Origin: Pseudomonadota bacterium
GTDB taxonomy: Bacteria; Pseudomonadota; Alphaproteobacteria; UBA1280; RI-95
Reading direction: 5' to 3'
NCBI GenBank assembly: GCA_016125375.1
Contig: WGLU01000001.1
Location: forward strand, 62,001-126,000
Length of the DNA: 64,000 nt
How positions within the stretch are numbered: position 1 is the first letter of the stretch; each line of letters starts with the position of its first letter. Positions 29,156 through 33,759 of this stretch are shown here, piece after piece. The notes under the pieces are model-generated. The model saw only the letters and a list, made by a program, of their open reading frames with translations. It had not been told where the DNA came from and did no database searches. The position numbers and the translations under genes are program-made.

Positions 29156-30064
29156 TTGCTGTATAAAATATATAAATCAGAAAAGAAAAACGCACCTTAT
29201 CTGCTCATGTTGCCCGGGGTTGCTTGCGGCGGGTTTGTGTTTGAAGGGGCGTTACCGTTGCTGACGGCGCATTTTCATGTGGTGTTGTTCAACAATCCGG
29301 GTACAGACGGGGCGCCGCTCGACCGGACGATGAGTGTGATGAGTGTTGCCCGTCAGGCGCTACACGTCATGGATGAGCTCAAGGTGCCCACGTTCCATGT
29401 GTTCGGGCATTCCATGGGCGGTTTTGTTGCCCAGCGTATTGCGCTGGAAGCGCCGGAGCGGGTGCTGCGTATGGTGCTGATGAGCACATCCTACGGCGGC
29501 ATGCAGACAGAGCGGGATACCCACCGCGTCATGCAGGATTTTGTGCATCATATGCGCGTCTTCCACGAGCTTTACCACCAGCGGCCGGAGCGGGTGCTGG
29601 AAATGATGGTCGCACCAGAGTTTGCTGCTAAATATCCGGAGCAGATTACCGCCATGGCGGAGCTTTTTGCCGGCCATAAAACAAATCCGGCTGCGGTTGC
29701 CGCGCACTTTATGTGCGGGGCCAGATTCTCCGCCTTTGGGGAGGTGGATAATATCACCGTACCGGCGCTGGTTATTCACGGCAGCGCGGATACGATTGTC
29801 AGCGTTCATGGTGCGCGCGCGCTTGCACGACACCTGCAAAAAGCCCGTTATCTAGAGCTGGCAGGCGGGGGGCATGTGCCGTTTATCGAAAAGCCGGAGG
29901 TGATGGCCGATGTGTGCGCTTTCCTGACCGGGGATAATACCATCGGCGAAGCCCTTGGCCGGGCCGAACGGCCCACGATGCCGGAAGTGATGGCCGACGG
30001 CCTATGGCGCGCAGGGCAGGAATCTCTGGGTGGCATCCGTTCACTCTTAGCCATGTTTGACTGA
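29156..30064 (+). CDS. Alpha/beta hydrolase
   Basis: A 302-residue alpha/beta-hydrolase fold protein that appears to start at TTG, 1 nt after rarA, giving MLYKIYKSEKKNAPYLLML. The nucleophile elbow is FGHSMGGF (Ser near 86), the acid is in HGSADTIVSVHG (Asp near 206), and the His is in AGGGHVPFIEKPE (near 238). A C-terminal tail after residue 258 lies outside the fold. Substrate is unknown. Confidence 0.85.
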   Translation: MLYKIYKSEKKNAPYLLMLPGVACGGFVFEGALPLLTAHFHVVLFNNPGTDGAPLDRTMSVMSVARQALHVMDELKVPTFHVFGHSMGGFVAQRIALEAPERVLRMVLMSTSYGGMQTERDTHRVMQDFVHHMRVFHELYHQRPERVLEMMVAPEFAAKYPEQITAMAELFAGHKTNPAAVAAHFMCGARFSAFGEVDNITVPALVIHGSADTIVSVHGARALARHLQKARYLELAGGGHVPFIEKPEVMADVCAFLTGDNTIGEALGRAERPTMPEVMADGLWRAGQESLGGIRSLLAMFD

Positions 30065-30106: not shown

Positions 30107-30481
30107 TTAGCCGAGGGCCTTCTTGCGCAGACCCATGTGGCAGAGGAAGAACAGGCCGCCGGAGCCGGCCAGCCACATCAGGGCTTCCTTGGCCATACCG
30201 GCGGTATCGCCGTTCAGCAGGGCGGTGTAGCCGTTGTCGGCGCTGACGGTGATCCACAGCATGGCGACAAAGCCCCACATGCCGACGCGGAAGGTGTTGA
30301 GCGCGCGCTCCTTCCAGCTCAGGCCGATGAGGCCGAAACACCAGACGGTACCGATAGCCATCATGATGTACAGGCCGGCGGCGCCGGTGCCGAAAAGGGT
30401 ATCTCTCAGACCGAGCAGAGTGCACAGCGCAACCATGAAGGCGGCAACGCCGTAAGCGTACTTGTTGAGAAGGTCCAACAT
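30107..30481 (-). CDS. Small polytopic membrane protein, 124 aa
   Basis: Not recognised. The start MLDLLNKYAYGVAAF has GAGGA 5 nt upstream. Four hydrophobic segments are visible (AYGVAAFMVALCTLLG; GLYIMMAIGTVWCFGLIGL; VGMWGFVAMLWITV; ALMWLAGSGGLFFLCHMG), with a basic LRKKALG end. It resembles YiaA/YiaB-like small membrane proteins in shape only. Private promoter and terminator. Confidence 0.7.
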   Translation of the reverse strand: MLDLLNKYAYGVAAFMVALCTLLGLRDTLFGTGAAGLYIMMAIGTVWCFGLIGLSWKERALNTFRVGMWGFVAMLWITVSADNGYTALLNGDTAGMAKEALMWLAGSGGLFFLCHMGLRKKALG

Positions 30482-30608: not shown

Positions 30609-31118
30609 TTATTTGCGCTTGTTCCATGGAAAGTCCATGGTCTTGCCGTTTTGCAGCCACCGCGCGAAGCGGGGCTTCATCTCCAGCAGGAGGATATCGA
30701 CCTCGGCCGTGCCGTTGAGGTAGGCTTCGGCATGGCGGGCCACGTCCAAGCAGCGGCTAAGGAAGTAGCCGCTGGCCAGACAGCCGACCATGACCAGGGC
30801 GATACGCAGGTTGCCTGCCTCCACGTTGAAGGCGATGCATCCAGCGAACAGGGCGCCGAGCAGCGTCCACATGAAGCAGAACTGGCCGCGGTAGGCCAGC
30901 GCATCGTTGTAGGCTTGCTGCGGCAGGAAGGTGTCGTGAATCTCGGCCTCGAGGTGCAACGACCAAAGAAGGATGATCATGCCGAAGAAGGCCGTCAGCA
31001 CGAGGGGCAACAGGAACGACGCCACAACCAGCATGGCAGCGACCGGAAGGACGTAAAACAGCACATCCTCAGTGTTGAGGAAGAGGCGAAAATACTGCAC
31101 AAGGGCTTTGCGCAACAT
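30609..31118 (-). CDS. Hypothetical membrane protein, 169 aa
   Basis: Not recognised. The start MLRKALVQYFRLFL is preceded by a weak GAAAGA. Four hydrophobic stretches occur as two pairs (DVLFYVLPVAAMLVVASFLL and VLTAFFGMIILLWSL; GQFCFMWTLLGALFAGCIAF and LRIALVMVGCLASGYFL), separated by a charged HLEAEIHDTFLPQQ segment. The C-terminus is cytoplasmic-looking and basic. Own promoter and terminator. Confidence 0.65.
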   Translation of the reverse strand: MLRKALVQYFRLFLNTEDVLFYVLPVAAMLVVASFLLPLVLTAFFGMIILLWSLHLEAEIHDTFLPQQAYNDALAYRGQFCFMWTLLGALFAGCIAFNVEAGNLRIALVMVGCLASGYFLSRCLDVARHAEAYLNGTAEVDILLLEMKPRFARWLQNGKTMDFPWNKRK

Positions 31119-31187
31119 GGCAGTTATCTTTCGTATCAGGGGTGATAAAAAACAGCGGAAACGGGAAAAACAATTCATAGGCCTTAC

Positions 31188-31228: not shown

Positions 31229-32692
31229 TTATTTGGACTTTACGAGATCCAGAAGTTTTTTGTACTGACCGGATTTGAAGGCAATCAACATCAGCGCCCA
31301 TTTGTGTTGGAAGGTCGAGCGGGAAACATAAGGCGGCTTGAAAATGCCCTTTGTCACGGCAATGACCTGTGGGCGGGTCATGCTGCGGATGCTCCAGCTA
31401 CCATGGCGCATACCGAAGCCGGACATGCGGCGTGCGCCGAAGGGCACACTCATATCCGCCACAGCAGTGGACACGTTGTTGATCATAATGTTGCCGATAT
31501 CCAGCTTTTTGGCGATATCGTAAGTGGCCTTGGCATTTTTGCCCCAAACGCTGGCGGTAATGCCCAGCTTATGGCTGTTAACCCAGCGAATGGCCTGACT
31601 GATGTTATCGAACCTGCGGAGCGTAATAATCGGTGCCCAGATGTCCTCTTGCTCCAAGCGCATACTGTCCGTCACCCCTTCAAGCACGGTGGGCGCAAAG
31701 AAGTGGCCTTGGATCTCTGTCATGCGGTGGCCGCCAATCAACAGGCGTGCCCCTTTTTTAGTGGCATCGGTGACAATCATCTCGGCAAAGCGGGTGAGGG
31801 GGTCGTTCATCATTGGGCCCAGTTGCGTATCGTTACGGTCAACGCTGCCGATTTTGATTTCCGGAATCTTTTTCAGGAGCTGTTCTTTGAACGCATCATA
31901 AACAGCTGCGTGGATAAAAATACGGGCTGGTTTGATAGCCGTTTGTCCGGAGTTGTTGCACATGCCCCAGATGCACGCCTTTACGGCCGCGGCAATATCG
32001 GCATCTTCAAGCACAATCATGGCATCCTTGCCACCCAGTTCAAGGTCGAGCGGCGTGACGTGGTGCGCGGCCTGGGCCATGATTTTACGCCCTGTAACGG
32101 TGGAGCCGGTAAAGATGACCTTATCAACAACCTCGAGCGTCAGGGCCTGGCCAATGTCCGGTCCGCCATCAACAATCTGGATAACGTTCTGGGGCAAGCC
32201 TTCAAACAGATATTTCATGGCTGCCGTTGTACGGGGCATGAACTCCGACGGCTTCCAGATGACGGTATTGCCTGCAATGATGGCTGCAATTAGCGGGTCG
32301 ATGTTCAGGAAAAGGGGGAAGTTCCACGTGCCGATAATCACGACCACGCCATACGGCTGGCGGTGCACTTTCACTTTCCGGGAGCCAAGATAGAACTGGC
32401 TGAGACCTGTGCCGACGGAAGAATCCGCAAGCTCTTTACCAGCGCTGCTGAGCATACGGTTAATGCTGTCGAGGGCGGGAAGCACCTCGCCCATCATGGC
32501 GGATTTGACGGATTTGCCCACATCCTTGTGGATGGCCTCGGCTAAATCGTCGCAGCGCTCGGCAAGGCGGTAACGGATGGTGCGGACAAGGTCCAGACGG
32601 TCTTTAAGAGGTTTCTCCGACCATTCGTAAAAGGCGGCACGGGCCTTTTTCTGGGCATCCTGCGCGCGAATTTCGGGTGCTTTATCGGCCAT
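31229..32692 (-). CDS. Aldehyde dehydrogenase-like protein lacking the catalytic cysteine
   Basis: A full-length 487-residue ALDH-fold protein. The Rossmann and substrate motifs are intact: IGTWNFPLFLN near 120, VIWKPSEFMP near 146, FTGSTVTGRKIM near 195, and LELGGKDAM with the general-base Glu at 218. The catalytic Cys expected 34 residues later in a GQxC motif is Ala252 (GQTAIKPAR). The C-terminal GARRMSGFGMRHG segment is also normal. It is therefore a probable pseudoenzyme, or uses another residue. In overall form it resembles class 3/coniferyl aldehyde dehydrogenases. Confidence 0.85.
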   Translation of the reverse strand: MADKAPEIRAQDAQKKARAAFYEWSEKPLKDRLDLVRTIRYRLAERCDDLAEAIHKDVGKSVKSAMMGEVLPALDSINRMLSSAGKELADSSVGTGLSQFYLGSRKVKVHRQPYGVVVIIGTWNFPLFLNIDPLIAAIIAGNTVIWKPSEFMPRTTAAMKYLFEGLPQNVIQIVDGGPDIGQALTLEVVDKVIFTGSTVTGRKIMAQAAHHVTPLDLELGGKDAMIVLEDADIAAAVKACIWGMCNNSGQTAIKPARIFIHAAVYDAFKEQLLKKIPEIKIGSVDRNDTQLGPMMNDPLTRFAEMIVTDATKKGARLLIGGHRMTEIQGHFFAPTVLEGVTDSMRLEQEDIWAPIITLRRFDNISQAIRWVNSHKLGITASVWGKNAKATYDIAKKLDIGNIMINNVSTAVADMSVPFGARRMSGFGMRHGSWSIRSMTRPQVIAVTKGIFKPPYVSRSTFQHKWALMLIAFKSGQYKKLLDLVKSK

Positions 32693-32710
32693 GCGGGGCG
32701 TGCTCGCTAC

Positions 32711-32758
32711 GTTATTTGTTGTTCTTTACGAAATCATCTATTATTTACCACAAATAAC
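32711..32758. promoter_or_regulatory. rluC promoter flanked by a 9-bp inverted repeat
   Basis: TTGTTG, a 17-bp spacer and TATTAT (32716-32744) form a good plus-strand promoter. It is bracketed by GTTATTTGT (32711-32719) and its exact inverse ACAAATAAC (32750-32758). The arrangement could be an operator pair controlling the divergent ALDH-like gene and rluC. Confidence 0.45.
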
Positions 32759-32784
32759 GGATTTTCAAAAGGTATTGCCATATT

Positions 32785-33759
32785 ATGAATATATCAGCCC
32801 AGAACAGCCCCGAAAATCAAGAGCACATCGTTACTGCCGATGATGCGGGCCAACGTCTGGATAAAACCCTGCAAAAGCTGTTCCCGGCCATTACATTCGG
32901 GATGGTACAGACCTTATGCCGCAAGGGGCAGATACGGCTGGACGGCAAGCGCGTAAAAGGGAACGAACGCCTGGAAGAGGGGCAGCGCCTGCGTATCCCG
33001 CCGCAAATCCGCGTGGCAGTGCCTACTGTGCGCGAACAGGTTGATCTGCGCCCGACGGATGCCGAGAAGAAGGTGCTTAAAAACGGCGTGCTGTACGAGG
33101 ACGAGCATTACATCATCCTGAACAAGCCCGCTGGGATGCCCGTGCAGGCCGGCAGCGGACATGTGCGCAGTCTGGATAGGCTGGCACCGTTGGTCTTCCG
33201 TGACGGTGACCTACGGTTGACGCACCGTCTGGACAAAGAAACATCTGGCTGTCTGGTGCTGGCACGCAGTGCCCGCGCTGCCAGTGCAATCGCCAAGATG
33301 TTCCGAGACCATGAGGTGCAGAAAACCTATTGGGCTGTTGCCGTTGGCGATATGTATGACAGCAAAGGTACGATTGATTTTGCCTTGCTGAAGTCCGGTG
33401 CGCCGGGGCAGCAGCGGGTTATCGCCCACGCTGACGGTGTGGACGCTGAAACGGATTATAGGCGCCTTGCCAGAAGCGGTGACCTGAACTGGCTGGAATT
33501 GATGCCAAAAACGGGGCGTACGCACCAGATTCGCGCGCACCTCTCCGCATTCGGGGTGCCGATCTTGGGCGATGGCAAGTACGGTGGGGATGACCTGTGC
33601 CGCTATGGTGAGGAAAAAATCAAAAACCTGTACCTGCACGCCCGTCGGATCCAGTTCATTCACCCGGAAACCGGGCAGGAGATTGATGTAACAGCTGGCG
33701 TACCCGAGCACTTTGCCCGCATGTTTGACCGGTTGCACTGGCAGGAACGGAAAAAGTGA
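32785..33759 (+). CDS. rluC: 23S rRNA pseudouridine synthase, RluC/RluD family
   Basis: A 324-residue protein with an N-terminal S4 RNA-binding domain (GQRLDKTLQKLFP near 18) and a RluA-type catalytic domain. The catalytic Asp is in THRLDKETSGCLVL near residues 147-160, and GRTHQIRAHLSAFGVPILGD near 248 is the conserved RNA-contact loop. It isomerises uridines in 23S rRNA. Start and stop fit; the stop overlaps the next gene (GTGA). Confidence 0.93.
   Translation: MNISAQNSPENQEHIVTADDAGQRLDKTLQKLFPAITFGMVQTLCRKGQIRLDGKRVKGNERLEEGQRLRIPPQIRVAVPTVREQVDLRPTDAEKKVLKNGVLYEDEHYIILNKPAGMPVQAGSGHVRSLDRLAPLVFRDGDLRLTHRLDKETSGCLVLARSARAASAIAKMFRDHEVQKTYWAVAVGDMYDSKGTIDFALLKSGAPGQQRVIAHADGVDAETDYRRLARSGDLNWLELMPKTGRTHQIRAHLSAFGVPILGDGKYGGDDLCRYGEEKIKNLYLHARRIQFIHPETGQEIDVTAGVPEHFARMFDRLHWQERKK

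Follow-up and report, generated by a model that had tools for sequence, protein, structure and literature searches.

A maintained aldehyde dehydrogenase homologue with alanine at the catalytic cysteine position, kept at the same genome position in two related bacteria

Proteins with the aldehyde dehydrogenase (ALDH) fold that have no catalytic Cys are already known to exist, as two described systems demonstrate. Human ALDH16A1 is presented as having the ALDH fold but no catalytic Cys, and is treated as a binding protein (PMC8160307, PMC10650815). The second AldDH encoded in GRM1 microcompartment loci is described as having this Cys replaced by Ser or Pro, an intact ALDH being encoded in the same locus (PMC4207490). 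Natural pseudoenzymes of this superfamily are few in the open-licence literature that was searched, from which no natural Cys-less ALDH beyond these two was recovered.

The same loss has also been engineered in the laboratory. The C302A variant of AldA from P. syringae is described as a tetramer with undetectable activity, in whose crystal NAD+ and indole acetic acid (IAA) are bound. The adenine half of NAD+ is held by Lys191, Glu194, Ser193, Ser245 and Trp167 (and Tyr255), and the nicotinamide is pulled back into a contracted position in which the contact with Glu267 is retained; in wild-type AldA the extended NAD+ is anchored by Glu401 (PMC7745063). On the other hand, human SSADH Cys340Ala is reported to keep at most 0.1% of its activity, and the Cys340 variants of this enzyme are reported as unable to bind NAD+ (PMC11681614). 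ALDH1A1 C302A is described as inactive as well (PMC5620155). As far as these descriptions go, published evidence is in conflict on NAD+ binding by a Cys-less ALDH: AldA C302A binds the cofactor, whereas the SSADH Cys340 variants do not.

The window considered in this work is a stretch of 64,000 nucleotides of alphaproteobacterial DNA, from a genome of 1.98 Mb (9 contigs, 97.7% complete). An intact frame of 487 amino acids fills positions 31229-32692 on the minus strand, with its start side at 32692 and its end at 31229, and internal stops are present in the corresponding frame of the plus strand. The product matches the Pfam family Aldedh (PF00171) with an E value of 2e-116 over residues 9-443, covering profile positions 30-460 of 461, and it is consequently a full-length member of the ALDH superfamily, free of frameshifts, just as a sequence-only reading of this DNA had stated. 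It falls under the curated cut-off of every NCBIfam ALDH equivalog among the matches listed (25 of 41), the best score being 327 bits against the 521 required. The AlphaFold2 model has a mean pLDDT of 94.3; it was built with Cys-bearing relatives, so that an ALDH fold was to be expected anyway. Its best VIA match to a solved ALDH has a Z of 48.6 and an rmsd of 2.2 over 436 residues, and ALDH matches span residues 1-462. Two engineered Cys-to-Ala enzymes are among these structure matches, human SSADH C340A (2w8p) and P. aeruginosa BADH C286A with NADPH (3zqa). Three further ALDHs are encoded in the window's own genome, all of them with Cys. Antisense to the gene, an open frame of 329 codons runs along the plus strand at 31304-32293; no evidence speaks for a gene there, and a shadow frame is the most likely explanation.

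The active site was located using the residue numbers of human ALDH2 (Cys302, Glu268, Glu399, Phe401) as they appear in PMC8160307, which were placed on the window protein by motif and alignments. The nucleophilic Cys302 of the GQxC motif, a hallmark of active ALDHs, is missing: residue 252 is Ala, in GQTA, 34 residues past Glu218 of LELGGK. The corresponding codon, GCT, is the complement of the window letters at 31937-31939 on the minus strand, and in both respects the sequence-only reading was accurate. The general-base Glu268 and the oxyanion Asn169 are present as Glu218 (GAA, 32039-32041, minus strand) and Asn124. The same reading had taken all other motifs to be intact, which is wrong: Glu399 and Phe401, which contact the nicotinamide half of NAD, are replaced by Asp350 (GAC, 31643-31645, minus strand) and Trp352 (TGG, 31637-31639, minus strand), the latter at a position occupied by Phe in 42 of 42 relatives. 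Residues 349-354 read E-D-I-W-A-P instead of the E-E-x-F-G-P of active ALDHs, from which it follows that the Glu399-equivalent residue is Asp; the Phe401 and Gly402 positions are changed too. Two residues past the lost Cys lies Lys254 (AAA, 31931-31933, minus strand), at a position where the 42 relatives have Ala (24), Ser (11), Gly (6) or His (one, L081).

An orthologue is found in G002, a genome of a different family in the same order, with 47% identity over 480 residues. It was the only one among 60 related genomes, in which the remaining matches listed do not exceed 35% identity. The sequence-only reading had called for an alignment with ALDH families and close orthologues, and this gave Ala, not Cys, in the orthologue, in GQSA and with the codon GCA. 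Among 122 aligned ALDH matches (two partial matches of L108 were left out), Cys is present in 119 and Ala in 3, these 3 rows being the query and the G002 orthologue fetched twice (L005, L034); all of the other 119 relatives therefore have Cys. Judged by this alignment, Ala at the Cys position in the query and its orthologue alone is beyond chance. Further loci add Cys in 44 of 44, six of which repeat earlier loci. Short frames of L058, L108 (twice) and L111 were left out of the analysis. Searches were also made more widely: in 385 genomes of the class at E <= 1e-70, only the window's genome, G002 and a single Cys-bearing match of 33% identity were recovered, and in 398 genomes of the phylum at E <= 1e-85, a sample that need not contain G002, only the window's genome. 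In 246 genomes of the phylum of genome G745, matches at E <= 1e-105 occur in 39, and all loci fetched from them have Cys.

The two orthologues have diverged in the manner of functional genes. Differences at the three codon positions are 0.42, 0.31 and 0.68, with 0.76 at fourfold sites; silent sites are thus saturated while the protein has been held. The same comparison gives 0.48, 0.32 and 0.72 for the neighbouring pseudouridine synthase and 0.34, 0.23 and 0.68 for rarA, and the row of ppx was dropped because only 9 codons could be read. (The names rarA, ppx, degQ and asmA are presumptive, having been assigned from sequence and not by search.) Protein identity between the two genomes is 47% for the ALDH, 44% for the pseudouridine synthase and 37% for the HAD protein. 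Conservation of at least 85% among the 42 relatives marks out 62 positions. Both orthologues retain 50 of them; of the other 12, three alone are changed in both, namely Tyr125 to Phe, Cys252 to Ala and Phe352 to Trp. Besides, 25 residues, Lys254 among them, are common to both orthologues and rare in the relatives. The frame and most of the family-conserved residues are therefore kept under purifying selection, and the proposal that the protein is maintained gains support from a syntenic orthologue in which the frame is still open and the Ala is still present. As this Cys loss is shared, at the equivalent locus, by a distantly related bacterium, the protein has apparently been retained for some purpose other than aldehyde oxidation.

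The phylogeny places these two proteins inside a mainly Planctomycetota clade, together with L051 (Armatimonadota) and L049, with SH-aLRT values of 96 and 97 in trees of 87 and 66 proteins. The clade persists, with 25 rows and an SH-aLRT of 98, when three motif regions are removed from the alignment. These trees were quick searches run without bootstraps, and near-duplicates were thinned beforehand, leaving 87 of 119 proteins in the first and 66 chosen rows in the later two. One change on the tree accounts for the replacement of Cys by Ala. At the Glu399 position, 25 of the 66 rows have a residue other than Glu and every one of them belongs to a 26-row clade, whose sole member with Glu is L110; the 40 rows outside it all have Glu. 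Three changes are needed for the states of this position, whose column moves by one residue between two alignments in L054. Since the Glu399 residue is absent from nearly the whole clade while Cys is kept, the loss of Glu399 is likely to be older than the loss of Cys. The Planctomycetota and Armatimonadota subfamily (for example L037, L043, L049, L051, L066) resembles the window protein in its altered Glu399 motif, in its clade membership in the three trees (SH-aLRT 96-98) and in the blocks W-N-[YF]-P, WKPSE and ELSG or ELGG; unlike the window protein, all members seen keep Cys. The position that is Glu399 in other ALDHs is occupied by Ala, Asp, Ser or Gly in this Cys-bearing subfamily, whose handling of the cofactor should differ from that of textbook ALDHs.

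In the window's genome and in G002 the gene order is rarA, alpha/beta hydrolase, ALDH (on the opposite strand), RluA-family pseudouridine synthase and HAD, the families being assigned by profile. The pseudouridine synthase (32785-33759, plus strand) lies head-to-head with the ALDH gene, and the alpha/beta hydrolase (29156-30064, plus strand) flanks its other side in both ALDH-bearing genomes. Downstream of the ALDH gene are two hydrophobic proteins without Pfam or NCBIfam matches, at 30609-31178 (directly downstream) and 30107-30481, both on the minus strand. The larger one, at 30609-31178, was not recovered from any of the five further genomes searched in the order, and a conserved operon of the ALDH with these two proteins is discarded because the larger occurs in one genome of six, the window's own. 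The ALDH gene itself is present in two of the six genomes of the order that were searched. In G003 and G005 rarA directly adjoins the synthase gene, both the hydrolase and the ALDH being absent, and in G001 and G004 the hydrolase adjoins the synthase without the ALDH. As four of the six genomes have no such gene, its function is dispensable in the order.

Several explanations may be put forward for this protein. An error of base calling or assembly at 31937-31939 could be imagined in a 9-contig assembly, and the sequence-only reading had itself proposed that these letters be checked; its probability is practically negligible, since a change from Cys (TGY) to Ala (GCN) takes two base changes and the syntenic gene of a second, independent genome also encodes Ala, with a different codon. 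Gradual decay towards loss would agree with the lack of such a gene at the locus in four of the six genomes, but it is hardly credible given that the frame is open in both orthologues, that the third-position bias equals that of functional neighbours and that 50 of the 62 conserved positions are kept. The orthologue with Ala and the third-position excess thus argue together against both error and decay. A different aldehyde reaction, for instance through an imine, might be provided by Lys254 or by another residue, for which the presence of this Lys in both orthologues and its absence from the 42 relatives speak, together with the retention of Glu218 and Asn124. Nevertheless, nothing else points to catalysis and we give such new chemistry a very low probability. 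A nearby residue restoring the nucleophile, which the sequence-only reading had foreseen as a possible objection, was not encountered either: the orthologue has Thr in place of Cys245, and residue 251 is Thr or Ser, the usual state in ALDHs of the GQTC type, so that neither is a likely substitute.

More weight is due to the idea of a pure scaffold, that is, a ligand-free structural subunit or protein partner retained, as in the case of human ALDH16A1, for the surface or the oligomer that it provides. ALDH16A1 reportedly has none of the catalytic residues and binds maspardin (PMC10650815), which is listed as an alpha/beta hydrolase (PMC4264881), and an alpha/beta hydrolase gene adjoins the ALDH gene in both orthologue genomes; the Cys340 variants of SSADH without NAD+ binding (PMC11681614) would also be in line with it. 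However, the pocket motif residues are kept in the window protein, whereas in ALDH16A1 the entire triad is said to be missing, and the hydrolase without the ALDH in G001 and G004 means that the pairing of these genes is not obligate. This scaffold is considered unlikely.

The explanation that we favour, and that we hold to be reasonably probable as a whole, is a maintained, non-catalytic ALDH acting as a binding protein. The place of the nucleophile is taken by Ala in each of the two syntenic genes, after what was likely an earlier loss of the Glu399-type residue in the wider subfamily. By analogy with the published Cys-to-Ala mutants, formation of the thiohemiacetal would be impossible and no aldehyde would be oxidised; the protein may still fold and oligomerise like an ALDH. 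NAD(P) might be held by its adenine half through Trp123, Lys147, Ser149, Glu150, Ser197 and Glu218, which, by motif only, are the kept counterparts of the AldA residues, with the Glu401 type lost. The nicotinamide could then be pulled back as described for AldA C302A, owing to the altered Glu399/Phe401 anchor. With the adenine-half residues kept and the Glu401 type gone, such a contracted NAD(P) complex is plausible, and the protein could serve as ligand holder, sensor or protein partner. To judge from the SSADH Cys340 variants, the window protein may likewise have lost the ability to bind NAD. Because the evidence on NAD+ binding is in conflict, the parts of this explanation are graded apart: the protein very probably performs no ALDH chemistry, and the chance that binding of NAD(P) or of a ligand is the retained function is put slightly below even. 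The designation as pseudoenzyme, already proposed from the sequence, is strongly supported by extrapolation from mutants described as inactive (PMC7745063, PMC11681614, PMC5620155). Against the binding-protein explanation count the fact that no partner or ligand was found for the window protein, that the known Ala-bearing orthologues are two only and that the gene is dispensable in the order, being absent from four of the six genomes.

The window protein may be compared with the described systems. AldA C302A (7JSO), SSADH C340A (2w8p) and BADH C286A (3zqa) share the substitution and the fold with the window protein, and two of them have been seen with cofactor; they are, however, laboratory mutants of active enzymes, whereas the window protein belongs to a natural lineage with further changes at the Glu399 and Phe401 positions. 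ALDH16A1 has in common with it the ALDH fold without the catalytic Cys, but no part of the triad is said to remain there, whereas the window protein keeps Glu218 and Asn124. ALDH16 is further characterised by an extra C-terminal ALDH-like domain (PMC8160307), while the 487 residues encoded in the window contain a single Aldedh stretch, and this feature of the predicted sequence sets the protein apart from ALDH16. The second AldDH of GRM1 loci, compared by its description only, is another bacterial case of Cys replacement, with Ser or Pro and within a microcompartment locus; the window protein has Ala, stands alone and has other neighbours, none of which suggests a microcompartment locus when tested by profile. 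The Ala-bearing, single-domain, stand-alone bacterial form adds to a class already known. This compact case, with its general base kept, its Cys-bearing relatives and its ordered history (Glu399, then Cys), would allow one to ask for what the ALDH fold is kept once oxidation is gone, and whether NAD is still held by a Cys-less ALDH, a point on which published mutants disagree.

Some relatives in the clade have carotenoid genes nearby. A CrtI-family carotenoid desaturase gene is in reach in 7 of 35 clade loci (L049, L051, L162, L164, L169, L174, L175), which suggests that some ALDHs of the Glu399-less clade are carotenoid-aldehyde dehydrogenases. C30 carotenoid pathways are described as employing an aldehyde dehydrogenase, AldH (PMC10448405). 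In the window's order, CrtI-family (TIGR02734) or squalene/phytoene-synthase (PF00494) genes are found in none of the six genomes (controls were positive in 8 and 7 of 14), so that a C30 carotenoid role for the window protein is unsupported and the Cys-less pair has left this setting, if it was ever part of it. A viral origin was considered as well and rejected: the ALDHs of five contigs from a viral contig collection (L114-L118) are only 26-28% identical to the query and all have Cys. These contigs may be host DNA or may bear carried genes, and two of their ALDHs group in the tree with the ALDH encoded at L002 in the window's own genome.

Finally, the pseudouridine synthase that lies head-to-head with the ALDH gene differs between the groups. 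It is of the RluA family in the window (gap 32692-32785) and in G002, and it is TruD, directly head-to-head, in 17 of the 35 clade loci (L037-L113); several of these loci are near-copies and their flanks differ in length, hence the counts of CrtI and TruD are not independent. For some of these CrtI and TruD genes the family was assigned by profile. That related ALDHs have two different pseudouridine synthases as neighbours may be due to chance or to a link with RNA modification. A more far-reaching proposal, to which we assign a low probability, would take this pairing (RluA-family here, TruD in the clade) as a real RNA-modification link. It would picture a stand-alone bacterial ALDH lineage that lost catalysis stepwise: the Glu399 anchor, which the subfamily already lacks, would have gone first, and the Cys would have followed in a single event within this order. 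The protein would then have been re-used as a regulator responsive to NAD(P) or aldehyde, or as a covalent aldehyde holder by means of the new Lys254.
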